Below, piece by piece: positions 8,209-25,020 of a stretch of 64,000 nucleotides of DNA. The stretch lies in contig NZ_LR134266.1 of the NCBI RefSeq assembly GCF_900636365.1, positions 323,501-387,500 of the forward strand. The letters run 5' to 3'. The notes under the pieces are model-generated. The model was not told the origin of the DNA and made no database searches. It saw only the letters and a program-made list of their open reading frames with translations. The translations under genes were made by a program, and so were the position numbers. Numbering within the stretch: the first letter of the stretch is position 1; each line of letters begins with the position of its first letter. The DNA is from Streptococcus viridans. GTDB lineage: Bacteria > Bacillota > Bacilli > Lactobacillales > Streptococcaceae.

Positions 8209-8661
8209 ATGAAGAAGCACTATCTGGTTTTGATCAATGGGCTCCTAGCGCTCATAGGAAGTGCCATTAATTTTTTTGCTCCAGTCATGATTTTGGCCAT
8301 GGGGCTCGCTGCTCATGAAGATTTCGGAAGTGCCTTGATGGCTTTAATTAGCTGGAACTTCTTTGTCTGTATTCTAGCCATCGCTTCTAGGTGGCTCCTA
8401 AAAGATGAAAAGAGGATTCATAAGTGGATTTCCAATCTCTTTCTGGTAGCGGGTCTCATTCTTTTATTTGCGAATCTCCTTATTTTGTCCTGGAGTTTTT
8501 CGTATCTTGAAAGTCCCTTGATGTGGCTATTTGGAAAAATCTTTGGGAAAGTTCATGAATTTACTTATTTCTTCTATTCTCAATGGGTCGCAGGAGGATT
8601 CCTAGTGATTTCCGGGATTGCATTTTTAGTTTCATTAAAAAATTTTAAAGCAGAGGATTAA
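8209..8661 (+). CDS. Small polytopic membrane protein, function unknown
   Basis: A 150-aa protein with four hydrophobic helices (about residues 5-35, 42-60, 75-97 and 124-143) and short polar loops. I recognise no family. ATG 8209 is chosen because GAGG at 8198-8201 lies seven bases upstream. It is followed at once by a strong hairpin, so it is a single-gene unit between tRNA-Leu and fba. Confidence 0.65.
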   Translation: MKKHYLVLINGLLALIGSAINFFAPVMILAMGLAAHEDFGSALMALISWNFFVCILAIASRWLLKDEKRIHKWISNLFLVAGLILLFANLLILSWSFSYLESPLMWLFGKIFGKVHEFTYFFYSQWVAGGFLVISGIAFLVSLKNFKAED

Positions 8662-8662
8662 A

Positions 8663-8689
8663 AAGAGGGAGCTTGGGCTCCCTTCTTTT
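8663..8689 (+). terminator. Intrinsic terminator
   Basis: AAGAGGGAGC, TTGG loop, GCTCCCTTCTTTT, immediately after the stop codon at 8661. Confidence 0.9.
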
Positions 8690-8746
8690 GCGTTTCTATG
8701 GGCTGTAGAAGTCTTGGGAAAGTAAGCATTCCTCCTCATTTATAAT

Positions 8747-8762
8747 AAGAAAGCGCTTAAAG
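8747..8762. promoter_or_regulatory. Possible cre (CcpA) site upstream of fba
   Basis: AAGAAAGCGCTTAAAG resembles the cre consensus around the central GCGCTT, with mismatches at the outer T and C positions. Its place 37 bases upstream of the -10 suits regulation of a glycolytic gene. This is inference only. Confidence 0.35.
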
Positions 8763-8795
8763 CTACAGGAAAAGCTAGCATTTTCATCTAAAAAG

Positions 8796-8804
8796 TGATA
8801 AAAT
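8796..8804 (+). promoter_or_regulatory. Extended -10 promoter of fba
   Basis: TGATAAAAT at 8796-8804 fits an extended -10 element (TGn plus TAAAAT). The -35 region is poor. The leader is about 45 bases. Confidence 0.65.
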
Positions 8805-8854
8805 AAACAATGTAAGTGGTTTAACCACAATAAATTAGAGGAGGCCTACTACTA

Positions 8855-9736
8855 ATGGCAATCGTTTCAGCAGAAAAATTTGTCCAAGCAGCTCGTGACA
8901 ATGGTTACGCAGTTGGTGGATTTAACACAAACAACCTTGAGTGGACTCAAGCTATCTTGCGTGCAGCAGAAGCTAAAAAAGCTCCAGTTTTGATCCAAAC
9001 TTCTATGGGTGCTGCTAAATACATGGGTGGTTACAAAGTAGCTCGCAACATGATCGCTAACCTTGTTGAAGCAATGGGTATCACTGTACCAGTTGCAATC
9101 CACCTTGACCATGGTCACTACGAAGATGCTCTTGAATGTATCGAAGTTGGTTACACTTCAATCATGTTCGACGGATCACACCTTCCAGTTGAAGAAAACC
9201 TTAAATTGGCGAAAGAAGTTGTAGAAAAAGCTCACGCTAAAGGTATCTCAGTTGAAGCTGAAGTTGGTACAATCGGTGGTGAAGAAGACGGTATCGTTGG
9301 TAAAGGTGAATTGGCACCAATCGAAGATGCTAAAGCAATGGTTGCTACAGGAATCGACTTCTTGGCAGCAGGTATTGGTAACATCCACGGTCCATACCCA
9401 GCAAACTGGGAAGGTCTTGACCTTGACCACTTGAAGAAATTGACAGAAGCTCTTCCAGGATTCCCAATCGTATTGCACGGTGGTTCAGGTATCCCTGATG
9501 AGCAAATCAAAGAAGCTATCAAACTTGGTGTTGCGAAAGTTAACGTTAACACTGAGTGCCAAATCGCATTCGCTAATGCAACTCGTCAATTCGTACGTGA
9601 ATACGATGCAAACGAAGCAGAATACGACAAGAAGAAACTCTTCGACCCACGTAAATTCTTGAAACCAGGATTCGAAGCAATCACAGCTTCAGTTGAAGAA
9701 CGTATCGACGTATTTGGTAGCGAAAACAAAGCTTAA
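8855..9736 (+). CDS. fba: Class II fructose-bisphosphate aldolase
   Basis: A 293-aa zinc-dependent aldolase of glycolysis. It cleaves fructose 1,6-bisphosphate to dihydroxyacetone phosphate and glyceraldehyde 3-phosphate. Class II hallmarks are HLDHGHYEDALECI (metal-binding His and catalytic Asp), FDGSHLP, and the glycine loop HGGSGIPDEQ. Codon use is that of a highly expressed gene. The same gene is called fda in the ICE literature. Its 3' end is a recognised integration target in streptococci, and here its last 15 bases and terminator are duplicated at 14962. Confidence 0.97.
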   Translation: MAIVSAEKFVQAARDNGYAVGGFNTNNLEWTQAILRAAEAKKAPVLIQTSMGAAKYMGGYKVARNMIANLVEAMGITVPVAIHLDHGHYEDALECIEVGYTSIMFDGSHLPVEENLKLAKEVVEKAHAKGISVEAEVGTIGGEEDGIVGKGELAPIEDAKAMVATGIDFLAAGIGNIHGPYPANWEGLDLDHLKKLTEALPGFPIVLHGGSGIPDEQIKEAIKLGVAKVNVNTECQIAFANATRQFVREYDANEAEYDKKKLFDPRKFLKPGFEAITASVEERIDVFGSENKA

Positions 9737-9791
9737 TTTTGCTTGAAACGTTATTAACCAGAGGTTTATCCGCAAGGATAAGCCTTTTTTG
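9722..9791 (+). repeat. Direct repeat, fba-proximal copy (att-like)
   Basis: Seventy bases run from the last codons of fba through its terminator. The copy at 14962-15031 matches at 67 of 70 positions. The repeat encodes the final Glu-Asn-Lys-Ala-stop in both places. This is what integration by a site-specific recombinase into the gene's 3' end would leave behind. Confidence 0.85.
9762..9790 (+). terminator. Intrinsic terminator of fba
   Basis: AGGTTTATCC, GCAA loop, GGATAAGCC and a T run. It is duplicated, with a single base change in the loop, at 15002-15030. Confidence 0.9.
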
Positions 9792-9925
9792 GTTCTCTTA
9801 TTTGGAAAAGTATTTATTGTAAACAAAACAATTTACTCATTTTTAGTAATAATTTTTAGTTTGAAGGGCCAATATAGTTTTTACATGATATAATTAAATT
9901 GTTGAGTTAATATTAGGAGATTATA

Positions 9926-10252
9926 ATGGAGATTGATAATCGGAGTATTCGTCTAGGAGATGAATTAAAGAAAGAAATAAAGCCTGGAAGCAAGGTGAAG
10001 ATTGCTGCTGCAACGTTTTCGATGTTTGCCTTTCAACAGTTAAAGGAAGAACTTGAAACGATCGAGGAGTTGAACTTTATCTTTACAAATTCAACCTTCA
10101 ATGAAATCCTAAAAATACAGACAAATAAGAATGATGGATTCAACATAACTTTTGAAGATGAAGGTAAAAATCGATCACAAAATATTCAGGAATTGCCAAG
10201 AAACTCGATTTTGAAAAAATACAGAAAGCAAAAAGTAAAATCGGTGCTTTAG
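9926..10252 (+). pseudogene. N-terminal fragment of a PLD-like/helicase-type protein
   Basis: The 108 codons start after AGGAG with good spacing. The first 55 residues or so (IDNRSIRLGDELKKEI, SKVKIAAATFSMFAFQQLK, LNFIFTNSTF) resemble the N-terminal phospholipase-D-like domain that opens many SNF2/DEAD-type helicases of defence islands. Those proteins run to many hundreds of residues, so this is a stub. The last residues are out of frame with the nuclease-like fragment that follows. The assignment is from remembered family features and is moderate. Confidence 0.55.
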
Positions 10253-10611
10253 GGGAAGAAATAGTTTTTGATTATTTAATGGAATCAGCTCAGCAAGAAG
10301 GATTAGCTACTCCAGTACATCTCTCTATAGAAGAAGGTGATGGTCTAGGTTACGATATTCGGTATTGGGACAAGGATGGAAAGGAGATCCATGTCGAAGT
10401 AAAAACAACAACGAGTAGATATGTAGATGGTTTTGAGATGACTCGAAATGAAATAGAAGCGTCATTGAACACAAACTATGATTATCAAATTTATAGAGTC
10501 TATGATCTTCAGGTTAAAACAAAAGACTGTAAAATTAAAATATATAAGGTGCCTGTAGATGATGAGAAGTTTATACTTGAAACAACGAAGGTAGTAGTGT
10601 TTCAAAAATAG
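10168..10611 (+). pseudogene. DUF3883-type PD-(D/E)XK nuclease-like fragment
   Basis: This frame is open from 10168 but the only ATG is at 10279, in the middle of the domain. The conserved DFEKIQKAKSKIGALGEE stretch lies upstream of that ATG, so the real start is lost. The domain core has GDGLGYDI and EVKTT, the GYD...E-x-K arrangement of Mrr-like restriction nucleases. DUF3883 domains usually sit at the C-terminus of large DNA-defence proteins. It probably belonged to the same or a neighbouring gene as the fragment at 9926, joined by deletion plus a frameshift between 10168 and 10252. Confidence 0.6.
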
Positions 10612-10718
10612 CAGTTTTAAGTGATTGTGTATAGAGCCATTTTAGGTTTTGTCATTGTTTTAATATTTAAATTGAAATAGTATCATAGACTGCTAATTTA
10701 AAAGATAGGGATAATATA

Positions 10719-12407
10719 ATGAATTTTTTCAAAAAAACTTTTATAACTCAACCAATGTTACCAAATTTCTTTTTAACAATATGTGTCAATGGTATTGTAA
10801 TATACATAACATTAATGTTAATGTCATTATTATTATTTAAATTTTTGATATATAACAATATAGAGTTGGTCATGGCGACTATGATCAACCTAGTTCTTAT
10901 GATTAATCTAGTCCTTTTCCTTTTCTTTTATTTTATTCGTGTCAATGCTCAAACGGATAGGGAAGAGCTTGGAAACATATTTCAACAGTTAAAAAGACCC
11001 GCCATAATCTTTTCAAAAAAGAAGTTTATAAATATTTTAATTTGTTTTCTATATTATATATCAATTGGACTGTTAATTGTAGAGGATTTCAAAGTAATAA
11101 ATAATAACTTACATTTAATAGAAATTTTTATATTGAACGTAGAAACAATAGTAACTATTATAATTGGACTTTTAATTTGTTCAGTTCTTTTATTTCTATT
11201 TCGATTTGTATATCAATTTATTGGAATTTCTCCATGGATAGTGATTGGCTTTTCTTCAATATTAATAATTTTCAGTTCATTAATCGGTATAGAAAACTCA
11301 CCTTTGGGTTGGACATTTTTAATGTTAATATTTGGAACGATTACGACTCAATTTACAAGTATAGATATAAAATATTTTTTTCCAGAAAAATATAGGGATA
11401 AAATAGAAAATAATGAAAAGATCAAGGAAAAATTGAGTAGAATTAAATATTCAACTATTATATATATTCCAATTTTATATATTTCATTATTATTTTCGGA
11501 AAAAATTTCAGTGAGTAATAATTTTATTTACTTACTTAATAAAATGACCTCCTCTCATTACGAGGAGGCTTCTCAAGAATTTTTTTCGATCTATACTTTC
11601 TCTTCTGGATTATTAAAACTAATTTTTATTACTTTAGGTTGGATTGTTTTTATAGAATACAAAGATATATTTTTAACTAAAGTTACAAGAAGTCTGATAG
11701 GAAAAGTTAAGGAGATTGAAAATTTATCGATTAGTAATGGGAAATATTATAAAATAAGGTGTAGCAAAAGGAAATGGAATATTGATAAAAGTGTTTTTTT
11801 ATTGAAAAAACAAAATAGTAGTACTGAAAATGAATCTCAAAAGATACGTGATAAATTTATATTGTCAAAAGAGTCATGGCTCTCTTTAAACACTAATAGA
11901 TCAATTAAAGTGATTTCTAATGATATAGTGAAAGTAGATAATGATTACTTTATACATAATGAATCAAATATTTTAAATAAGTTTGAAAAAATAGATAAAC
12001 GTACAAGAAAGGAAACACTTGGGCAACTAGATTTAACAGCTTTAATTATTGTTACTATATTTTTTTCATTTCTTGTTTTATCAAATTTGCTCTTGGATGT
12101 AGATATGAAAAAAGTACCAAATGGTGTTTTTTACTACAAAAATAGTGAACAGACTTATTTACCTACGGATAGGATTTATTTCTGTGAGGATAAAATAAGC
12201 CACGTAAAAGATAATATTCAGTACTTTAATTCTACCAGATCACTTAAAAAAGTTATTCCTAAAGTTACGAATTATAAATATGATAAAGTTTCCATGACGA
12301 TTAAAGATGAAAAACATAATATAGTTGGTGAGCTTAATAAAATGACAAAAATTATAGATATGAAAGATGAGGATGGAAATAAAAAAACATATATTGAGAT
12401 TAAGTAG
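10719..12407 (+). CDS. Large multi-pass membrane protein, unknown
   Basis: The 562 aa are very AT-rich in codon use. About seven hydrophobic helices lie in residues 15-325 (for example near 20-45, 52-75, 104-125, 140-165, 172-192, 247-265 and 293-315). A charged cytoplasmic-type segment covers about 325-440. One more helix is at about 444-466, and a soluble C-terminal part ends rich in Lys and Asp. I recognise no family. It has the length and regularity of an intact gene. It stands alone, with terminator hairpins downstream, between the decayed nuclease gene and the HTH regulator. Confidence 0.7.
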   Translation: MNFFKKTFITQPMLPNFFLTICVNGIVIYITLMLMSLLLFKFLIYNNIELVMATMINLVLMINLVLFLFFYFIRVNAQTDREELGNIFQQLKRPAIIFSKKKFINILICFLYYISIGLLIVEDFKVINNNLHLIEIFILNVETIVTIIIGLLICSVLLFLFRFVYQFIGISPWIVIGFSSILIIFSSLIGIENSPLGWTFLMLIFGTITTQFTSIDIKYFFPEKYRDKIENNEKIKEKLSRIKYSTIIYIPILYISLLFSEKISVSNNFIYLLNKMTSSHYEEASQEFFSIYTFSSGLLKLIFITLGWIVFIEYKDIFLTKVTRSLIGKVKEIENLSISNGKYYKIRCSKRKWNIDKSVFLLKKQNSSTENESQKIRDKFILSKESWLSLNTNRSIKVISNDIVKVDNDYFIHNESNILNKFEKIDKRTRKETLGQLDLTALIIVTIFFSFLVLSNLLLDVDMKKVPNGVFYYKNSEQTYLPTDRIYFCEDKISHVKDNIQYFNSTRSLKKVIPKVTNYKYDKVSMTIKDEKHNIVGELNKMTKIIDMKDEDGNKKTYIEIK

Positions 12408-12495
12408 TTATTCAATCATATAATATCCAATTATTTATAATTGTTCTGCAAAATTGTCGGTAATATACATGAAAAATAGATACGATAATGGCTAA

Positions 12496-12529
12496 AACTT
12501 TCCGGAAAAGATACATTTTTCGGAAAGTT
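12496..12529. repeat. Inverted repeat, copy A
   Basis: AACTTTCCGGAAAA (12496-12509) and TTTTCGGAAAGTT (12517-12529) form a near-perfect hairpin. A related, less perfect hairpin is at 19845-19883, also just upstream of sequence shared by both regions. Confidence 0.7.
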
Positions 12530-12560
12530 AATTTACAATAACTCTCAATATAAAGTTATA

Positions 12561-12598
12561 AAATACGCAAGATCTATTAAAATTGCGTATTTTTTATT
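12561..12598 (+). terminator. Terminator-type hairpin
   Basis: AAATACGCAA (12561-12570) and TTGCGTATTT (12583-12592), followed by TTTATTT. Its right arm starts the 50-bp repeat also found at 22946. Confidence 0.7.
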
Positions 12599-12625
12599 TA
12601 AAATGTATTAGAATAAAATTCATAT
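12576..12625. repeat. 50-bp direct repeat, copy A
   Basis: Matches 22946-22995 at 49 of 50 positions. In copy A the upstream sequence is continuous with the AACTTTCC hairpin. In copy B the copper cassette sits directly against it. Confidence 0.85.
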
Positions 12626-12702
12626 TTACATTTATTAAAAGCATTTCGTATCAAAAATACGGGATGCTTTTTCTGTCTAGCTTAATTTGACAATCTAGGA
12701 AA

Positions 12703-12749
12703 AAAAGCTCCTCTATTAACTGTTTTTTACAGCAAGAAGAGGAGCTTTT
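12703..12749 (-). terminator. Terminator of the HTH regulator gene (bidirectional)
   Basis: AAAAGCTCCTCT (12703-12714) and AGAGGAGCTTTT (12738-12749), flanked by A and T runs on both sides. Confidence 0.85.
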
Positions 12750-12787
12750 ATTCAGAGAGTTTGTTCAGTGTTCCAATTTACTAATTT

Positions 12788-13210
12788 CTATTTTTTTTTA
12801 TTGAGACCAATTAAAAGGATTGGTACTAACGCACCAATAATTTTACCTGCAATAGCAGCAGACTTAGAGGATACAATTAATTTAGAAGCCTGAGAGATTT
12901 CATCAAAATCTAGATTTTCTGCTTCAGCTTTGGACAATACTTCTAATAACATTTCAGCACGCTTAGCTCTATCAGAGTCGGCTGACTTTAGTTGTTCAAT
13001 TTCAAAATCAACTACTGTTCGTATTGCAATATAATGTAGTTTGGTTAGTTTGCTATTTTTTGTTTCTAGATTACTAATAGTTTGTTTAGTGACACCAATA
13101 AGATTACCTAAATCTTCACTAGTCCAATTTAAGATTTCTCTGATAGACTTTAAATTATCTTGCAGTATTTGTCTTGTTTTCTCATTTGAGGGATATTTTT
13201 CTTTTTTCAT
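12788..13210 (-). CDS. HTH (XRE-type) regulator with C-terminal membrane tail
   Basis: A 140-aa protein. An XRE-type helix-turn-helix covers about residues 17-55, with TSEDLGNLIGVTKQTISNLE as turn and recognition helix. A charged helical linker spans about 60-115. The C-terminal hydrophobic segment IAGKIIGALVPILLIGL (about 120-136) is capped by KKK, which should anchor the protein in the membrane. A DNA-binding domain tied to the membrane suggests it senses an event at the envelope or the products of the divergent operon. It is transcribed away from that operon and ends in its own terminator. Regulation of the operon is inferred from position. Confidence 0.75.
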   Translation of the reverse strand: MKKEKYPSNEKTRQILQDNLKSIREILNWTSEDLGNLIGVTKQTISNLETKNSKLTKLHYIAIRTVVDFEIEQLKSADSDRAKRAEMLLEVLSKAEAENLDFDEISQASKLIVSSKSAAIAGKIIGALVPILLIGLNKKK

Positions 13211-13307
13211 TTCACAACACCTACAATTCTGTATTTACATTATAACAGAAATTTGGGACATAAAAAAGCATTGTTTTGGTCAAAAATATAATTTAAGTAA
13301 AAAATAT

Positions 13308-13336
13308 TTGACAAAATAAAAATTATGGATTATAAT
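13308..13336 (+). promoter_or_regulatory. Perfect-consensus promoter of the small-protein operon
   Basis: TTGACA (13308-13313), a 17-base spacer and TATAAT (13331-13336). Both hexamers and the spacing are ideal, so the promoter must normally be kept in check or drive strong expression. The leader to the first gene is about 150 bases. Confidence 0.85.
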
Positions 13337-13369
13337 ATCGATATTCTTAAGAAAGTGAGGAATGAAGTT

Positions 13370-13396
13370 ATGATTAGCTTATTAAAAATAAAGTGA
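13370..13396 (+). CDS. Possible 8-codon leader peptide
   Basis: ATG 13370 to TGA 13394-13396 encodes MISLLKIK, with GAGG at 13357-13360 as a possible ribosome-binding site. It lies in the long leader just upstream of an inverted repeat (13397-13435). The arrangement resembles a translational or transcriptional attenuator. It could equally be chance. Confidence 0.3.
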   Translation: MISLLKIK

Positions 13397-13463
13397 GTCA
13401 TATGTTTGTTCTAGATTCTGTGTCAGAAACATGACCAGAAGTTTTTTGGTGTAGTATACACCG
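13397..13463. promoter_or_regulatory. Leader inverted repeats (attenuator or operator)
   Basis: GTCATATGTTT (13397-13407) pairs with AAACATGAC (13427-13435). A perfect small palindrome GGTGTA-GTA-TACACC follows at 13449-13463. The first could be an RNA attenuator after the leader peptide. The second looks like a repressor half-site pair, since ACACC also occurs upstream of the HTH gene. Confidence 0.4.
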
Positions 13464-13492
13464 TGCCGTGCCATTATAGGAGGAAAGTCAGA

Positions 13493-13732
13493 ATGGATTT
13501 ACAAGTAATACTTAATATTGTGTTGATTTTTGGAATGATTTATTTCGTTGTTAGAAGATATATTATTGCCTCAAAATTTGCAGACTATATGATTAAGAAT
13601 GGCGGGGAAGAAATTGAATTTATAAAGGAAAATAAATTGAGTTTCTCTGAATGCGTGAAATTGATTAACAAAAAATATAACATTGGGTTAGTTAATTCAT
13701 TTTCTGTCGTGAATTGTATAAGAGAAATGTAA
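13493..13732 (+). CDS. Small single-helix membrane protein, L7/L12-CTD-like tail
   Basis: A 79-aa protein. An N-terminal transmembrane helix (about residues 4-27) is followed by a soluble tail. The last 30 residues (ECVKLINKKYNIGL, then VVNCI) resemble the helix-turn-helix pattern of the ribosomal L7/L12 C-terminal domain, which also occurs in small non-ribosomal proteins. ATG 13493 has TAGGAGGA just upstream. An upstream GTG at 13463 has no ribosome-binding site and overlaps the palindrome. First gene of the operon; function unknown. Confidence 0.6.
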   Translation: MDLQVILNIVLIFGMIYFVVRRYIIASKFADYMIKNGGEEIEFIKENKLSFSECVKLINKKYNIGLVNSFSVVNCIREM

Positions 13733-13759
13733 GCTACACTAATAAAGGAGAGAATTATT

Positions 13760-14101
13760 ATGGACGCAATTGTTAAGAAATTAGCAGGTTTTGGTTTGCC
13801 AGCTGTAGTCTTGTTAGTAGCAATGAGTACAACAGGTTTAGCAGGTGCTGCAGCATTAACTACAGCATTGGCTGCTCTTGGACCATTTGGCATGTTAGGT
13901 GGAATTGCTTTATTAGTTTTTTTAGGTTTAGCTGCAGATTCAATTGCTGGATACGGTTATGAAGAAGTGGCAAAGCGCGTAGTTAAAGAACAATTAAAAA
14001 CTACGTCTAAGTCTGAAATGATTAAAAATATTAGAAAACAACCAATTACAAAAGCAATGAAATTAAAAATTATTGACTTTGTTGAACATATAGATATCTA
14101 A
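13760..14101 (+). CDS. Gly/Ala-rich two-helix membrane protein
   Basis: A 113-aa protein. Two hydrophobic segments (about residues 8-42 and 43-65), rich in Gly and Ala with GxxxG-like spacing (GLAGAAALTTALAALGPFGM), form a probable membrane hairpin. A basic amphipathic C-terminal half follows. The composition recalls glycine-zipper, pore-forming or holin-like proteins and some bacteriocins, but there is no leader cleavage site. GGAG precedes the ATG. It could be an effector of the module; this is speculative. The nearest partners are the membrane-tailed regulator and the zinc-ribbon protein. Confidence 0.6.
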   Translation: MDAIVKKLAGFGLPAVVLLVAMSTTGLAGAAALTTALAALGPFGMLGGIALLVFLGLAADSIAGYGYEEVAKRVVKEQLKTTSKSEMIKNIRKQPITKAMKLKIIDFVEHIDI

Positions 14102-14122
14102 TTTGAAATAGGAGTTAATATT

Positions 14123-14329
14123 ATGTCAAAATTATACGAATGTAGTGAGTGTGGTGAGTTGTTTACCAAGCATGAAATTGATTGGGAAGGTAGCGATGAA
14201 AGCTATGAGTCTTATTATTGTCATGACTGTTCTAGGTTTCTAGAGCAATGTGGAATTGATGCAATGGATCCTGATGGATTTGGGTATGACGAATATGGAA
14301 ACTGGGATTCGGAACGATTAGGATTATAA
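14123..14329 (+). CDS. Small zinc-ribbon protein
   Basis: The 68 aa carry two Cys pairs, CSEC near residue 7 and CHDC near residue 34, spaced as in a zinc ribbon. The rest is rich in Asp, Glu and aromatic residues. A TAGGAG site precedes the ATG. It follows the glycine-rich protein gene by 21 bases, in the same operon. No family beyond the zinc ribbon is recognised. Confidence 0.6.
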   Translation: MSKLYECSECGELFTKHEIDWEGSDESYESYYCHDCSRFLEQCGIDAMDPDGFGYDEYGNWDSERLGL

Positions 14330-14420
14330 ATACCTTAGAAAAACTCCTATTGCCTCTTCGCCCGTACTCTTGTTAGATGTTTATAACAGTCTTAAAAAAA
14401 TCATATAAGGAAGTGTAAGA

Positions 14421-14732
14421 ATGAAGCTAATACCGTACATTTTTATAAATAGAAATTTATTGTCTGTTAGCGGCTCAAAAAAAGAAGTGTTTTCTAAATG
14501 TCTCAAAATTGCAAGTAAATATGGAGAAGTGATAGGCAGTGATGAAATATTTGGGGAAATTTATCTCAAAACAAAACTAAATCTGCGCCAGTTACATTTT
14601 CCAAGAGAAATAAAAATATCGGTTGCTGCCACTGAGGTTCAAGATTTGACTATTATAAGGTTTGGTGATAGGTTTGATTATACTAGTTCATGGCTTAGGG
14701 ACGTTTTTGGGAAAGAATTCTTTAAAAAATGA
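14421..14732 (+). CDS. Hypothetical protein at end of the small-protein operon
   Basis: A 103-aa soluble, basic protein without recognisable motif. AAGGAAGTG lies just upstream of the ATG. It is separated from the zinc-ribbon gene by 91 bases without a clear terminator, so it may be the last gene of the operon. Its AT-rich codon use matches the island. Confidence 0.5.
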   Translation: MKLIPYIFINRNLLSVSGSKKEVFSKCLKIASKYGEVIGSDEIFGEIYLKTKLNLRQLHFPREIKISVAATEVQDLTIIRFGDRFDYTSSWLRDVFGKEFFKK

Positions 14733-14883
14733 AGCCCTGTATATAGTTATAATGAAGCGCTTCAAAACCATACTGGAACTTCCCTAAATTATCAAGCTAA
14801 TATCAATTTTTTGAAATTTTAGTTGCGTAAGGATGCCCTTAAATACTGTTATGAAGCTATTTTTAAATCAATTGAAAATAATG

Positions 14884-14902
14884 CTTTCCAAACCAGGTCT
14901 TA
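14884..14902 (+). repeat. 19-base att-like core, copy 1
   Basis: CTTTCCAAACCAGGTCTTA, identical to 24964-24982 (where it forms part of an rpsI 3' ghost). CAAACCAGGTCTTACGA here matches 28490-28506 at 16 of 17 bases. Confidence 0.7.
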
Positions 14903-14961
14903 CGATAATATAGAGGTTTACAATGTAATGGGAAGTACGGCGATTAAATCAACTATATTCA

Positions 14962-15031
14962 GAAAACAAAGCATAATCTTGCTTGAAACGTTATTAACCA
15001 GAGGTTTATCCGTAAGGATAAGCCTTTTTTG
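14962..15031 (+). repeat. Direct repeat, distal copy (att-like)
   Basis: Second copy of the fba 3' end and terminator, with three differences from 9722-9791. It still reads Glu-Asn-Lys-Ala-stop and keeps the terminator hairpin. It marks the far end of the island. Confidence 0.85.
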
Positions 15032-15091
15032 TTGGTGTTGGAGGTGATTATTTATCTCTTTTATTATTGCAACAAAAATATCTAAGTCATA

Positions 15092-15120
15092 TTGATAAAA
15101 CACTCTAAAATTTGTACAAT
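15092..15120 (+). promoter_or_regulatory. Promoter of the hydrolase remnant
   Basis: TTGATA (15092-15097) and TACAAT (15115-15120), 17-base spacer. The ATG at 15127 lies where transcription should start, so the message would be leaderless. Confidence 0.6.
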
Positions 15121-15126
15121 AACGCT

Positions 15127-16059
15127 ATGAAAAAATTTAAACAGTGGAGTTGGATCCTTTGTGGCTTTCTTATCCTCTTTTTAGGTGCTACATTTATGTT
15201 TCACCAAGTCAGTTTGCAAAAAGAAAGGAAGCTACTCACACCCATAGGTAAACAGGTTACGGTCAATGGCCATCAAATGAATGTCTCGATTACTGGAGAA
15301 GGGCCTGAAACAATCGTGTTACTTTCAGGTGCTGGCATCGCCTCCCCTATCCTAGACTTTAAGAATCTATCAGATTCCCTATCCAAAAAATACAAAGTTG
15401 TTGTCGTGGAGCGAGCAGGATATGGTTTTAGTGAAGATAATGATCGTTCAAGAGATGTGATGGAGGTCCTTTCTGAGACCCGTCAAGCTTTGGCGCAAGC
15501 TCATGTTTCAGGTCCTTATGTGATTATTTCGCATTCTATGGCTAGTTTAGAGAGTCTTGCTTGGCAAGAGAAATATCCGAATGAAGTGAAGACTTTGATT
15601 GGCCTGGATTGGGCCTTGCCAGCGAGTTATGAAGATTTAAAGGATAATCAGGCCTTGCTTACTGTGGCTTATTGGAGCAGTAAGATTGGCTTATTACGCT
15701 ATTTCCCTGAGTCCTTTTATATAAAAAATCCAACTCTGACTGAAACTGAATGACAACAATATAAATTACTAGCATATAAGCAGTTGATGTCACAAGCCAT
15801 GCTTCATGAATCCCGTTTGGCAAAGGAAAATGCCAAGAAAGTTCCATCTAGCATTAATCCGAAAATTCCAGCCTTACTCCTGGTTTCTAACGGTGAAGGC
15901 ACGACCTTTAGCCAATCAGAGTGGCAACGTTATGCAGAGAGATTTGCAAGCGACCAGTCTAATGTTCAAGTCGACTATATGGATGCGCCTCACGACCTCT
16001 ATCATTATCAAAGCGATGCTATTGTTTCTCGTATTAAAGAATTTTTAGAGAATAATTGA
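15127..16059 (+). pseudogene. Alpha/beta hydrolase, interrupted by an in-frame stop
   Basis: One reading frame of about 310 codons is broken by TGA at 15751-15753 after codon 208. An N-terminal membrane anchor (residues 9-30) is followed by a hydrolase fold with an oxyanion strand (VVVVERAGYGFS) and the nucleophile elbow SHSMAS. The His region (DAPHDLYHY) lies after the stop, so the catalytic triad is split. Both halves keep the same frame and family similarity, so the stop is recent. It was the original downstream neighbour of fba before the island arrived. Confidence 0.8.
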
Positions 16060-16165
16060 GGGCTTAAAAATCCATTGAGACTGATGATAATAATTAAATG
16101 CTGAAGGATTAACAGTAGAATCGTTAATTTTCTCGATTAAAAAAATTCTTTTTCTTAACAAGAAG

Positions 16166-16189
16166 CCTGCCCCTAAGGGCAGGTTTTTT
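16166..16189 (+). terminator. Intrinsic terminator
   Basis: CCTGCCC, loop CTAA, GGGCAGG, then six T. Confidence 0.9.
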
Positions 16190-16270
16190 GGTGTCTTAAG
16201 GAAACTATTTAACAGAATTCTTGATTAAAAGTTTCATTTTAAGAGAGAAATCTCTAATTTCATACTCAAT

Positions 16271-16309
16271 AAGCAAACGCTTGCATTCCTTTTTTTATTA
16301 GATTATAAT
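16271..16309 (+). promoter_or_regulatory. Promoter of ABC exporter with cre-like site
   Basis: TTGCAT (16281-16286) and TATAAT (16304-16309), 17-base spacer. AAGCAAACGCTTGCAT at 16271-16286 is one outer mismatch from a cre consensus and covers the -35. CcpA repression is plausible but inferred. Confidence 0.6.
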
Positions 16310-16418
16310 AGGTTGGTATAAAGCCTTCTGTAATAATATTGAAAAAGTGTAGAAAGTAAGGATTTAGAATACTTGTAGTCAAAAATACAATGTTGCTTCT
16401 TACGATAGGGAGATAGAT

Positions 16419-17411
16419 ATGGCAATGATAGAAGTGCAACATCTTCAGAAAAATTTTGTGAAGACAGTTAAGGAGCCGGGGTTAAAGGGAGCCTTGCGCT
16501 CCTTTGTTCATCCTGAAAAGCAGACTTTTGAAGCGGTCAAGGATTTAACATTTGAAGTTCCAAAAGGGCAGATTCTAGGATTTATCGGGGCAAATGGTGC
16601 TGGGAAGTCAACCACCATCAAAATGCTGACAGGGATTTTGAAACCGACATCTGGTTTTTGTCGGATTAATGGCAAGATTCCGCAGGACAATCGCCAAGAT
16701 TATGTCAAGGATATTGGGGTTGTTTTTGGGCAACGCACCCAGCTATGGTGGGATTTGGCTCTGCAAGAGACCTACACGGTTTTGAAAGAGATCTATGATG
16801 TACCGGACTCGCTTTTCCATAAGCGCATGGACTTTTTGAATGAAGTTTTGGATTTGAAGGAATTTATCAAGGATCCTGTGCGGACTCTTTCACTAGGTCA
16901 ACGGATGCGGGCGGATATTGCAGCTTCCTTACTTCACAATCCCAAAGTTCTCTTTTTAGATGAACCGACTATTGGTTTGGATGTGTCGGTCAAGGACAAC
17001 ATTCGTCGGGCCATTACTCAGATTAATCAGGAGGAAGAGACAACTATTCTCTTGACCACTCATGATTTGAGTGATATTGAGCAACTCTGTGATCGGATTT
17101 TTATGATTGATAAGGGGCAAGAGATTTTTGATGGAACGGTGAGTCAGCTCAAGGAGACCTTTGGCAAGATGAAGACTCTCTCCTTTGAACTGGTACCAGG
17201 TCAAGGTCATCTTGTCTCTCATTATGAAGGCTTACCTGATATGTCCATTGATAGACAAGGAAATACTCTCAATATTGAATTCGATAGTTCCCGCTACCAG
17301 TCGGCCGATATTATCAAGCAAACCTTATCTGATTTTGAAGTCCGTGATTTGAAGATGGTAGATACGGATATTGAAGATATTATCCGTCGCTTCTATCGAA
17401 AGGAGCTCTAA
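16419..17411 (+). CDS. ABC-2 exporter ATPase (COG4586 type)
   Basis: A 330-aa ATPase. Walker A is GANGAGKST, the signature is LSLGQ, Walker B is LFLDEPTIGLD and the switch His is in TTHD. The long N-terminal extension (about 40 residues before the first core strand) and the C-terminal domain are typical of the COG4586/4587/3694 exporters, which work with two dissimilar six-helix permeases. The substrate is unknown. The gene is followed directly by both permease genes. A divergent AT-rich paralogous set is at 25671-28235. Confidence 0.85.
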   Translation: MAMIEVQHLQKNFVKTVKEPGLKGALRSFVHPEKQTFEAVKDLTFEVPKGQILGFIGANGAGKSTTIKMLTGILKPTSGFCRINGKIPQDNRQDYVKDIGVVFGQRTQLWWDLALQETYTVLKEIYDVPDSLFHKRMDFLNEVLDLKEFIKDPVRTLSLGQRMRADIAASLLHNPKVLFLDEPTIGLDVSVKDNIRRAITQINQEEETTILLTTHDLSDIEQLCDRIFMIDKGQEIFDGTVSQLKETFGKMKTLSFELVPGQGHLVSHYEGLPDMSIDRQGNTLNIEFDSSRYQSADIIKQTLSDFEVRDLKMVDTDIEDIIRRFYRKEL

Positions 17412-17412
17412 G

Positions 17413-18231
17413 ATGGTCAAATTGTGGAGACGTTATAAACCCTTTATCAATGCAGGGATTCAGGAGTTGATTAGCTATCGAGTCAACTTTATTCTCTATC
17501 GGATTGGTGATGTCATGGGGGCTTTTGTGGCATTTTATCTCTGGAAGGCAGTCTTTGACTCCTCCCAGGAGCCTTTGATTCAGGGCTTCAGTATGGCAGA
17601 TATCACTCTCTACATCATCATGAGTTTTGTGACCAATCTTTTGACTAGGTCTGATAGCTCCTTTATGATTGGGGAGGAGGTCAAGGATGGCTCCATTATC
17701 ATGCGCTTGCTGAGACCAGTGCATTTTGCGGCTTCTTACCTCTTTACGGAGCTTGGTTCCAAGTGGTTGATTTTTATCTCTGTTGGGCTGCCATTTTTAA
17801 GTGTCATTGTTTTGATGAAAATCTTATCTGGGCAAGGTATTGTAGAAGTGCTGGGATTAACTGTCCTTTATCTCTTTAGCTTAACTCTGGCTTATCTGAT
17901 TAACTTTTTCTTTAATATCTGCTTTGGATTTTCAGCCTTTGTCTTTAAAAACCTATGGGGTTCCAATCTACTCAAGACTTCAATAGTGGCCTTTATGTCT
18001 GGCAGTTTGATTCCCTTGACATTTTTTCCAAAGGTGGTTTCAGATATTCTCTCCTTATTGCCATTTTCATCCTTGATTTACACTCCGGTTATGATCATTG
18101 TTGGGAAATACGATGCCAGTCAGATTCTTCAAGCACTTTTGCTTCAGCTTTTCTGGCTTATAGTGATGGTGGGCTTGTCTCAGTTGATTTGGAAACGAGT
18201 CCAGTCATTTATCACCATTCAGGGAGGTTAG
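17413..18231 (+). CDS. ABC-2 exporter permease 1 (COG4587 type)
   Basis: A 272-aa protein with six predicted helices, the first beginning near residue 18. It is one half of the heteromeric channel of the exporter. ATG 17413 is chosen because it lies one base after the ATPase stop, with AAGGAG at 17400-17405. A longer in-frame extension (from 17371) would overlap the ATPase gene without a ribosome-binding site. Confidence 0.82.
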   Translation: MVKLWRRYKPFINAGIQELISYRVNFILYRIGDVMGAFVAFYLWKAVFDSSQEPLIQGFSMADITLYIIMSFVTNLLTRSDSSFMIGEEVKDGSIIMRLLRPVHFAASYLFTELGSKWLIFISVGLPFLSVIVLMKILSGQGIVEVLGLTVLYLFSLTLAYLINFFFNICFGFSAFVFKNLWGSNLLKTSIVAFMSGSLIPLTFFPKVVSDILSLLPFSSLIYTPVMIIVGKYDASQILQALLLQLFWLIVMVGLSQLIWKRVQSFITIQGG

Positions 18232-18232
18232 T

Positions 18233-19018
18233 ATGAAAAAATATCAACGCATGCATCTGATTTTTATCAGACAATACATCAAGCAAATCATGGAATACAA
18301 GGTGGATTTTGTGGTAGGTGTGTTGGGAGTCTTTCTGACTCAAGGCCTAAACCTCTTGTTTCTCAATGTACTCTTTCAACACATCCCCTCGCTAGAAGGT
18401 TGGACCTTTCAAGAGATTGCCTTTATCTATGGATTTTCCTTAATTCCAAAGGGATTAGATCATCTCTTTTTTGACAATCTCTGGGCTTTAGGTCAACGAC
18501 TAGTTCGAAAAGGGGAGTTTGACAAGTATCTGACCCGTCCTATCAGTCCTCTCTTTCACATCCTCGTTGAGACCTTTCAGATTGATGCCTTGGGCGAACT
18601 TTTGGTCGGTGGAATCTTACTAACGACAACGGCGACTAGCATTGCTTGGACTCTTCCCAAATTCCTGATTTTTCTAGTTTGTATTCCTTTTGCGACCTTG
18701 ATCTATACTTCCCTGAAAATTGCAACAGCCAGCATCGCTTTTTGGACCAAGCAGTCAGGTGCCATGATTTACATTTTTTATATGTTTAATGATTTTGCCA
18801 AGTACCCGATTTCCATTTATAATTCCCTCCTTCGTTGGTTAATTAGCTTTATTGTGCCCTTTGCTTTTACGGCCTACTATCCTGCCAGCTATTTCTTGCA
18901 GGACAAGGATGTCTTCTTTAATATTGGTGGTTTGATTCTGATTTCTCTTATCTTCTTTTGCATCTCTCTGAAACTTTGGGACAGGGGGTTAGATGCCTAC
19001 GAAAGTGCTGGTTCGTAA
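18233..19018 (+). CDS. ABC-2 exporter permease 2 (COG3694 type)
   Basis: A 261-aa six-helix membrane protein pairing with the preceding permease. Conserved features of the family include GWTFQEIAFIYGFSLI near residue 55, the RPISPLF turn near 103 and the C-terminal WDRGLDAYESAGS. The AGGGAGG site overlaps the end of permease 1. The same C-terminal RKGLKKYESAGR pattern is found in the paralogue at 27450. Confidence 0.82.
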   Translation: MKKYQRMHLIFIRQYIKQIMEYKVDFVVGVLGVFLTQGLNLLFLNVLFQHIPSLEGWTFQEIAFIYGFSLIPKGLDHLFFDNLWALGQRLVRKGEFDKYLTRPISPLFHILVETFQIDALGELLVGGILLTTTATSIAWTLPKFLIFLVCIPFATLIYTSLKIATASIAFWTKQSGAMIYIFYMFNDFAKYPISIYNSLLRWLISFIVPFAFTAYYPASYFLQDKDVFFNIGGLILISLIFFCISLKLWDRGLDAYESAGS

Positions 19019-22945: not shown

Positions 22946-22995
22946 ATTAAAATTGCGTATTTTTTATTTAAAATGTATTAGAATTAAATTCATAT
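22946..22995. repeat. 50-bp direct repeat, copy B
   Basis: Matches 12576-12625 with one difference. It abuts the right end of the copper cassette. Confidence 0.85.
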
Positions 22996-23246
22996 AAAAT
23001 ATGCACGAAAAATAAATCAAATTTAAAAAGTACAAATTAATGAAGTGATTATTGATAAAAATAGTTAATAATTGGTTAAACAAAATATATAACTCGTTTA
23101 TAAATTTATAGAAATGAACCATTATAAATCTCCTCTTAAATATTGAAAAAACCATTGGCAGTGGACATACTTTAAGACTATATATTTCTGAAACTAGTTT
23201 CACAACACAAATATTGACATGCAATTATTAATTGGTGGATTTTAAG

Positions 23247-23275
23247 TTGACATCTACAGAGGTTAATGTTAGAAT
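23247..23275 (+). promoter_or_regulatory. Promoter of cadDC
   Basis: TTGACA (23247-23252) and TAGAAT (23270-23275), 17-base spacer. Confidence 0.85.
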
Positions 23276-23277
23276 AA

Positions 23278-23297
23278 ATTCAAAAATATATTTGAAT
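23278..23297. promoter_or_regulatory. CadC/CadX operator
   Basis: Perfect inverted repeat ATTCAAA-AATATA-TTTGAAT just downstream of the -10. It matches the form of the known cad operator of staphylococcal plasmids (TCAAATA...TATTTGA). Binding would block transcription until Cd, Zn or Pb is present. Confidence 0.8.
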
Positions 23298-23307
23298 GAG
23301 GTGTTTT

Positions 23308-23922
23308 ATGATTCAAAATATTGTTACTTCAATAATCCTGTATTCTGGGACAGCCGTAGACTTACTTATTATCCTAATGTTATTTTTTGCCAAAAGAAAA
23401 AGCAGAAAGGACATCATTAACATCTATTTAGGACAATTTCTAGGCTCTGTTAGTCTAATATTCCTAAGTTTGCTTTTTGCATTTGTCTTAAATTATATTC
23501 CTAGTAAAGAGATTTTAGGTTTACTAGGTTTGATTCCAATTTTCCTAGGCCTCAAAGTTTTGCTTTTAGGAGATTCTGATGGAGAAGCTATTGCAAAAGA
23601 TGGTTTGCGAAAAGACAATAAAAACCTGATTTTTCTAGTCGCTATGATTACTTTTGCAAGTTGTGGCGCTGACAATATAGGTGTCTTTGTCCCATATTTT
23701 ACCACCTTAAATTTAGCGAATTTGATAGTGACTTTACTTACTTTTCTAGTCATGATTTATCTCTTGGTTTTTTCTGCCCAAAAATTAGCACAAGTCCCTT
23801 CTGTTGGAGAAACTTTGGAGAAATATAGCAGATGGTTTATTGCCGTTGTCTATTTAGGATTGGGGATGTATATCCTGATTGAAAACAACAGCTTTGACAT
23901 GCTATGGGCTGTGTTAGGCTAG
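23308..23922 (+). CDS. cadD: CadD-family cadmium resistance transporter
   Basis: A 204-aa membrane protein with about five helices. It has the CadD hallmarks: an early TAVDLLIILMLFFAK segment, the GLIPIFLGLKVLL helix and the Cys-containing FASCGADNIGVFVPYF motif. It lowers cellular cadmium and perhaps zinc. ATG 23308 is preferred to the in-frame ATG 23296, because GAGG at 23298-23301 lies six bases upstream and the operator covers the earlier ATG. Its stop overlaps the ribosome-binding site of the regulator gene. Confidence 0.88.
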   Translation: MIQNIVTSIILYSGTAVDLLIILMLFFAKRKSRKDIINIYLGQFLGSVSLIFLSLLFAFVLNYIPSKEILGLLGLIPIFLGLKVLLLGDSDGEAIAKDGLRKDNKNLIFLVAMITFASCGADNIGVFVPYFTTLNLANLIVTLLTFLVMIYLLVFSAQKLAQVPSVGETLEKYSRWFIAVVYLGLGMYILIENNSFDMLWAVLG

Positions 23923-23933
23923 GAGAAAAAATT

Positions 23934-24272
23934 ATGAAAAAAGATAGTATCTGTCAAGTGGATGTTATAAATCAACAAAATGTTACAACCGCAACGAACT
24001 ACCTTGAAAAGGAAAAAGTCCAAAAATCACTTCGCATTTTATCAAAATTTACCGATAATAAACAGATAAATATCATCTTTTATCTCCTTGCCGTCGAAGA
24101 ACTCTGTGTCTGCGATATAGCCTGTTTATTAAATCTCAGTATGGCATCTGCCTCCCACCATCTTCGTAAACTAGCCAATCAAAACATCTTGGACACTAGA
24201 AGAGAGGGGAAAATTATATATTATTTTATAAAAGATGAGGAAATCAGAGTTTTTTTTAATCAACTAGGATAA
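23934..24272 (+). CDS. cadC: ArsR/SmtB-type metal sensor (CadC/CadX)
   Basis: A 112-aa winged-helix repressor. The metal site is the N-terminal Cys (DSICQV) together with ELCVCDIA in helix 3. The recognition helix is SMASASHHLRKLANQNIL, and the beta wing (REGKIIYYFI) follows. The ELCVCD motif is diagnostic for Cd/Pb/Zn sensors. The start at 23934 follows AGGAGAAAAA. It should autoregulate cadDC from the palindrome at 23278. Confidence 0.9.
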   Translation: MKKDSICQVDVINQQNVTTATNYLEKEKVQKSLRILSKFTDNKQINIIFYLLAVEELCVCDIACLLNLSMASASHHLRKLANQNILDTRREGKIIYYFIKDEEIRVFFNQLG

Positions 24273-24315
24273 CAACTATTTTTACTACTTTTCCATGATT
24301 ATAGGGAGATTATAT

Positions 24316-24450
24316 ATGAAATTTTTTGATGAAAATTACTCACAAGAAATACCTACTCGTATCAAATGTTTAAGAAAAAAGTATAATTTAAAGCAAAGCG
24401 ACCTAGGTAATGCAGGTCAAGTTAGCCAAGTTGAAAAGGGAGAAATTTGA
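24316..24450 (+). pseudogene. Truncated XRE-type HTH fragment
   Basis: Forty-four codons with a GGGAG site: an HTH begins (RIKCLRKKYNLKQSDLG, VSQVEKGEI) and stops at TGA right after the recognition helix. The following frame (24457) is in phase but encodes the end of a membrane protein. The gene has therefore been cut and joined to unrelated sequence. Confidence 0.65.
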
Positions 24451-24456
24451 AAGAAT

Positions 24457-24804
24457 TTGTATCTTTTATTTTTTGTTTCATTTATGCCCTATGCTACTGG
24501 AATAGTTAGTAGTCATTTCATGAATCATACGGCACAGCTCTTTTATGGACTGATCGTTATTGTTTCAACGGTAGCAAACTGGTTTTTACATAAAGTAATT
24601 GATAAACCCAATATAGATCAGAAAGAATTACTTGAAGCTACCGCACAATATAGGAAGTTATTGATACCTGACCTAATAATTAAAGGAGTGGGATTGATTC
24701 TATCCTTAATTGTCTATCCTCTGATTATGATGTATAGTGTTTTAATTGCGGCATTTTACATCATAACTTTAAAAACACTATCCGAAAAAAGAGTGAATAA
24801 CTAA
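24457..24804 (+). pseudogene. C-terminal part of a TMEM175/DUF1211-like membrane protein
   Basis: About 115 codons encode three or four helices. LLFFVSFMPYATGIVSSHF, then a helix near IVIVSTVANWFLHK, resembles the second half of bacterial TMEM175-family potassium channels. The first repeat, with its FSDAVFAIAIT signature, is missing. The frame has no ribosome-binding site and continues from the truncated HTH fragment across a TGA. It is a relic. Confidence 0.55.
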
Positions 24805-24963
24805 AAAACGGTGACCAAAGTTAGGTGTATTATTTTAATGCTTAGAGACCTAAACTATTCCCCTATTTTAAAAATATTGATTCAGATTTTATGAAATTAA
24901 TCAGTAGATATCGTTCTGAAAAGCCTTGATAATACGCTGTTTTTAGTCCAACTGAAACCCATA

Positions 24964-24982
24964 CTTTCCAAACCAGGTCTTA
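24964..24982 (+). repeat. 19-base att-like core, copy 2
   Basis: Identical to 14884-14902. It continues into the rpsI ghost, which explains its origin as a ribosomal protein gene 3' end. Confidence 0.75.
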
Positions 24983-25020
24983 AGAAAGCTCGTAAAGCAT
25001 CACAATTATCAAAACGTTAA
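24970..25020 (+). pseudogene. Ghost of the rpsI (ribosomal protein S9) 3' end
   Basis: Reads KPGLKKARKASQLSKR-stop, essentially the C-terminal tail of streptococcal S9 (PGLKKARKASQFSKR). No other part of rpsI is present. The 3' end of rpsI is a known ICE integration site in streptococci, so this piece should be an att site left by, or carried with, an element of that specificity. Confidence 0.8.

Follow-up and report, generated by a model that had tools for sequence, protein, structure and literature searches.

A probable relic of tyrosine-integrase elements, apparently with an rpsI-type element inside, behind the fba gene of an oral streptococcus

The 3' end of fda is the integration target of ICESt1, ICESt3 and their relatives in Streptococcus thermophilus and S. 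salivarius, and fda, rpsI and rpmG are the target genes of CIMEs in S. salivarius (PMC7563491); both target genes and the definition of a CIME have been described (PMC7563491, PMC3234194). The S. salivarius CIMEs are 1.2 to 13 kb in length, contain only cargo, are flanked by att sites, occur in tandem arrays and commonly carry cadmium genes, while solitary CIMEs were missed by the method used, as stated in that report (PMC7563491). We examined an island of ∼5.2 kb that lies directly behind fba (fda) in a 64,000-nucleotide stretch of the genome of an oral streptococcus, S. viridans, referred to here as the window. Like ICESt1 and ICESt3, the island is located at the 3' end of this gene, and its relatives at the fba site carry a tyrosine integrase; unlike those elements, it has no integrase, conjugation gene or arm repeat. 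As neither an integrase nor a conjugation module was found, the island was not assigned to the ICEs of the ICESt3 family, and as neither a relaxase nor an integrase was found, it was not assigned to the IMEs. Cores at 9718 to 9737 and 14958 to 14977 and a right terminus shared with relatives flank the island, and no functional integrase, relaxase, coupling or VirB4 gene was detected within it, as in a CIME. The S. salivarius CIMEs likewise have only cargo between att sites, but the island differs from them in lacking the presumed arm repeats, in standing alone rather than beside an intact element and in having an rpsI-type module inside fba-type ends.

The target gene (8855 to 9736, forward strand) encodes a class II fructose-bisphosphate aldolase of 293 amino acids, and proteins with 88 to 100% identity were found in 80 streptococcal loci. 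Judged by the fba region, the closest relatives are S. xiaochunlingii, S. australis and S. rubneri. A preliminary description of this DNA had reported a 70-bp duplication of the fba 3' end with three differences. This duplication was recovered at 9722 to 9791 and 14962 to 15031, with identity at 67 of 70 positions, a spacing of 5,240 bp and differences at repeat positions 12 (T/A), 17 (T/C) and 52 (C/T), and the Glu-Asn-Lys-Ala-stop end was legible in both copies. A search of the whole 1,998,575-bp genome detected these two copies (E values of 8e-31 and 1e-26) and no third, which excluded chance as their origin. The DNA between the copies was AT rich, as had been described, with a GC content of 0.23 to 0.34 versus about 0.40 to 0.45 in the flanks.

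Comparison with integrase-bearing elements at fba confirmed that the repeats bounding the island are real and att-like but altered the view of what recombines. Only ∼20 bp were common to both ends of intact elements, and a 70-bp att core was therefore ruled out. The true attachment core consists of about 20 bp, namely, the end codons of fba plus TAAT, and the remainder of the repeat is a terminator segment that is present twice. The attL core, TAGCGAAAACAAAGCTTAAT (9718 to 9737, forward strand), comprises the final fba codons and the stop codon and matches TTCAGCAAACAAAGCTTAAT, the sequence common to both ends of the integrase-bearing elements. The same comparison placed the attR core, TTCAGAAAACAAAGCATAAT, at 14958 to 14977 on the forward strand; the two cores differ at one position within GAAAACAAAGC(T/A)TAAT, corresponding to repeat position 12. 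The bulk of the repeat (∼54 bp) is the terminator located between the core and the integrase gene of integrase-bearing fba elements. The left copy of this segment (9738 to 9791, forward strand) was 80% identical over 60 bp to the element of genome G010, in which the integrase gene comes straight after it. In those integrase-bearing elements, the right-hand core precedes another terminator, presumably that of the host. The second copy in the window (14978 to 15031, forward strand) is the right half of the pre-insertion fba site; it agrees with S. australis D40t1 at positions 17 and 52 and, in two genomes (G032 and G078), runs on without a break into the sequence at 15032 to 19000. A similar terminator was found behind fba in S. 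orisratti and S. caballi, where no island is present, so this terminator is not unique to elements; it may have started as a host terminator that was later acquired by elements.

The native fba terminator (CCTGCCCCTAAGGGCAGG plus a T run), which in L008 and other compact loci is directly 3' of fba, was detected at 16166 to 16189 (forward strand). This displacement indicates that positions 9738 to 16165, the abh gene included, were added in more than one step. A promoter-like segment at 9796 to 9937 (forward strand) had 92 to 94% identity to loci L003, L004, L006 and L083, and S. australis, S. xiaochunlingii and S. rubneri also retain a remnant of it beside the native terminator.

A tyrosine integrase of 449 to 450 amino acids (PF00589; 2e-23) was intact in five genomes (G249, G250, G010, G185 and G079), with its gene 80 to 103 bp past the fba stop codon and convergent with fba. 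The core TTCAGCAAACAAAGCTTAAT or a near variant was repeated 42.3 kb (G249), 8.7 kb (G010) and 8.0 kb (G185) downstream. The fba-integrated IMEs G010 and G185 closely resemble the island in core and left terminator but, unlike it, retain the integrase, a candidate relaxase of the REP_ORF2-G2P type and an FtsK-like coupling protein. The 42-kb G249 element (L132 to L134) contained a partial conjugation module and many insertion sequences and encoded a CHAP protein and an AAA_10 (VirB4-like) ATPase; apparent rRNA methylase and aminoglycoside-modifying enzyme genes were noted by eye in its translations. Only C-terminal stubs of the integrase were found in L034 (residues 338 to 449), L072 (307 to 449), L057 (410 to 448) and the first of the two elements that form a tandem composite at fba in G082 (405 to 450). 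The comparison of integrases across fba loci detected none behind fba in the window, L064, L125, L127 and others, and a search for a stub at 9792 to 9937 was also negative. Ancestry from an ICE or IME by deletion would fit the decay series in relatives, but the window itself has no integrase stub. The interval between fba and abc was 1.0 to 9.3 kb in 34 of 47 relatives and compact (0.2 to 0.5 kb) in the other 13.

The sequence preceding the attR core (14907 to 14957, forward strand), which has lost the presumed arm repeats, matched the right terminus of fba-targeted elements of the R1 family in G082, G003/L072, G014 and G120. Together with the core (∼72 bp), it showed 90% and 86% identity with the pair of right ends in the G082 composite, 85% with the right end in S. 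alactolyticus (G003, L072), 79% over part of its length with S. mitis SK608 (G014/L064) and ∼71% with G120, G121 and G132. The islands with a like right terminus hold different cargo, with an SduA/Shedu protein in L064 and N6 methylases in L057 and L034. A terminus common to islands of different species with unrelated cargo has the appearance of an integrase end.

A crossover between repeat positions 12 and 17, in TAAT, would give a pre-insertion site reading T, C, T at the three variable positions, and the empty site would be TAAT-CTTGCTTG...-abh. In S. australis D40t1 (L004), the end of fba agreed at 70 of 70 positions with the fused attB predicted from the two copies. L004 is not strictly empty because a lac operon comes next, and the exact junction of fba, terminator and abh was absent from all genomes compared.

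Other insertions were observed behind fba. A complete lac operon (lacR, lacABCDTFEG) occupied this position in L003, L004, L006, L083 and L091; it was identified as such for S. xiaochunlingii and S. australis G1 and by matching layout for the others, including S. rubneri. In L004, L006 and L083, this operon lay between partial copies of the fba-element terminator. A cassette of ∼950 bp with a lipoprotein gene was located between two terminator copies behind fba in L083 (1585 to 2531), L084 and L085, and the second of these copies begins at repeat position 32. In S. gordonii and S. sanguinis (L007, 10890 to 14898; L031; L042), genes for a histidine-triad protein and a zinc-binding lipoprotein were recognized by eye behind fba, in an insert that is immediately followed by another copy of the fba end.

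The cargo of the island begins with gene remnants (9926 to 10611, forward strand), in which the reading frames showed an N-terminal fragment joined out of frame to a C-terminal NOV_C (DUF3883) fragment (PF13020; 1.8e-15). The N-terminal fragment had a weak match to the start of a 1087-amino-acid phage family, phrog_26785 (6e-5). The next open reading frame (10719 to 12407, forward strand) encodes a membrane protein of 562 amino acids with a 31% identical relative beside type III restriction-modification genes. An XRE-type regulator (HTH_3, 7.7e-6; 12788 to 13210, reverse strand) and four small open reading frames of 79, 113, 68 and 103 amino acids (13493 to 14732, forward strand) are cargo of an rpsI-type module. 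The small open reading frames fall in a block that is 92 to 97% identical in G145, except for the 113-amino-acid gene, and the first three of them and the regulator were matched at 74 to 76% behind fba in S. infantis. The 113-amino-acid protein had a weak PADLOC match to BnzA (3e-5), which is only a hint; apart from NOV_C and XRE, no function could be assigned to the cargo with confidence from PADLOC, Pfam or NCBIfam. Rfam detected no family at 8600 to 16600, and the only two tRNAs of the window are both outside the island.

The module at 12623 to 14905 resembles the rpsI-integrated islands of G018 (L156) and G145 (L155) at both ends and in most of its genes; it differs from them in its position, downstream of fba, and in having an attR that is truncated after AAACCAGGTCTTACGA. 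The left-end terminator of rpsI-integrated elements (12623 to 12676, forward strand) was 92 to 94% identical to copies in L156, 5 nt past the rpsI stop codon, and in G250, where the match stands right after an rpsI-end copy. The truncated rpsI 3' end of an rpsI-type attR (AAACCAGGTCTTACGA) was found at 14890 to 14905 (forward strand), and in L155 and L156 a like right end continues into the entire 3' end of rpsI. Positions 12792 to 13736 and 14106 to 14905 were 92% and 97% identical, respectively, to L155, in which the matching block proceeds into a complete rpsI attR. Both the left-end terminator and a truncated attR are present in the window, and the left core is absent. Positions 14847 to 14905 had been considered as part of the fba terminus, a candidate that was dropped since this segment is the right end of rpsI-type elements and occurs in many streptococcal genomes. 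An rpsI-like right end also lay immediately internal to the fba-type one in L072 and the first G082 element and, less clearly, in the G249 ICE, with the two ends paired within about 200 bp of the core. This pairing suggested an exchange of recombination modules. The island thus appears to be chimeric, with an rpsI-type element inside, a feature missed by the preliminary description. We tentatively suggest that fba and rpsI elements exchange parts and that the island is an rpsI-type element inside fba-type ends, a fossil att site left by a swap of module and target, although this scenario is somewhat less favored than not.

Integrase-bearing elements at fba share the core, the right terminus and the left terminator with the island, and a relative has the predicted fused attB; the interpretation of the repeats as attL and attR, put forward in the preliminary description, therefore held. 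The island is probably what remains, in decayed and chimeric form, of tyrosine-integrase elements of the fda/fba ICE-IME-CIME family. In the order of events that we infer, the core of an element would have recombined with the fba end, with crossover within TAAT, such that fba kept its protein sequence and gained the terminator of the element while the old 3' end was shifted to the right. Later losses would have removed the integrase gene and the presumed arm-binding region at each end, and the interior would have been rebuilt from gene remnants, the membrane protein gene and the rpsI-type module. Local duplication of a segment at the end of fba, with unrelated DNA between the copies, would explain the repeat itself and nothing else; the terminus, core and decay series are found in many species, and the shared right terminus contradicts a local event, making this origin very improbable. 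An alternative origin of the mosaic would be natural transformation followed by homologous recombination across the interval from fba through its terminator to abc; the terminator copies would have provided short stretches of homology, and no site-specific recombination would have taken place here in this lineage. Terminator copies do flank the lipoprotein gene in L083 to L085 and the lac operon in L004 and L006, where the second copy has no core, but the right copy in the window opens with a core, and the R1 terminus of integrase-linked elements from other species lies immediately before it. A chance homologous junction would not produce this combination, and a mosaic of this type is thus rather improbable.

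The preliminary description had also regarded the island as a candidate for mobilization in cis by a related ICE. Its observation that no recombination gene remains was borne out by profile and integrase searches, which detected no integrase, relaxase or coupling protein in the island. Intact elements have tandem 11-bp repeats ∼60 to 84 bp inside attL and ∼115 to 138 bp inside attR, of the TTTTGCCCCC type in G249, G082, L072, L125 and L127 (the last two keeping only the right-hand repeats) and of the AAATACTCA type in G010 and G185. Their position and spacing suggest that they are integrase arm sites, an argument that rests on aligned positions, a 10-mer shuffle test being only moderately informative. 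Such repeats were absent from both ends in the window, where only 51 bp of the terminus are kept on the right side. With two cores in place, an fba-specific ICE or IME that entered the cell might need nothing more to integrate next to the island and carry it away in cis; both cores are present with one differing position, CIMEs next to ICEs at fda have been documented (PMC7563491), and the tandem composite of G082 represents accretion at the fba site. Against this, the presumed arm repeats are missing at both ends, the cores are unlike at repeat position 12 and this genome has no fba-type integrase, its five other tyrosine recombinases all being elsewhere. A still-mobilizable CIME is therefore unlikely. 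The loss of the arm repeats and of any fba-type integrase, together with cargo containing gene remnants, makes mobilization by a related ICE doubtful, and the island is probably a relic rather than a live cis-mobilizable element.

As a decayed remnant, the island extends the fda/fba hotspot of S. thermophilus and S. salivarius to oral streptococci, in which all stages of decay were seen, and suggests a route for transfer of cargo between elements of different target specificities. The core, the presumed arm repeats and both termini are features by which solitary CIMEs could be found. If the module swap is true, the fossil att site would mark a streptococcal element that exchanged its recombination module and hence its target gene.

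The rpsI gene itself is at 1.67 Mb of this genome, outside the window, and is adjoined by a tyrosine recombinase gene (1670509 to 1671452); the genome may therefore retain an active element that targets rpsI. A second rpsI-type module away from rpsI was observed in the window at 22946 to 25020; it terminates in a full-length copy of the 3' end of rpsI (24970 to 25017). This module contains the cadmium transporter gene cadD (PF03596; 23296 to 23922) and an ArsR-type regulator gene (23904 to 24272), and its first positions (22946 to 22995) were 98% identical to 12576 to 12625. In G145 (L155), the cadD module and the module of the fba island are arranged in tandem.
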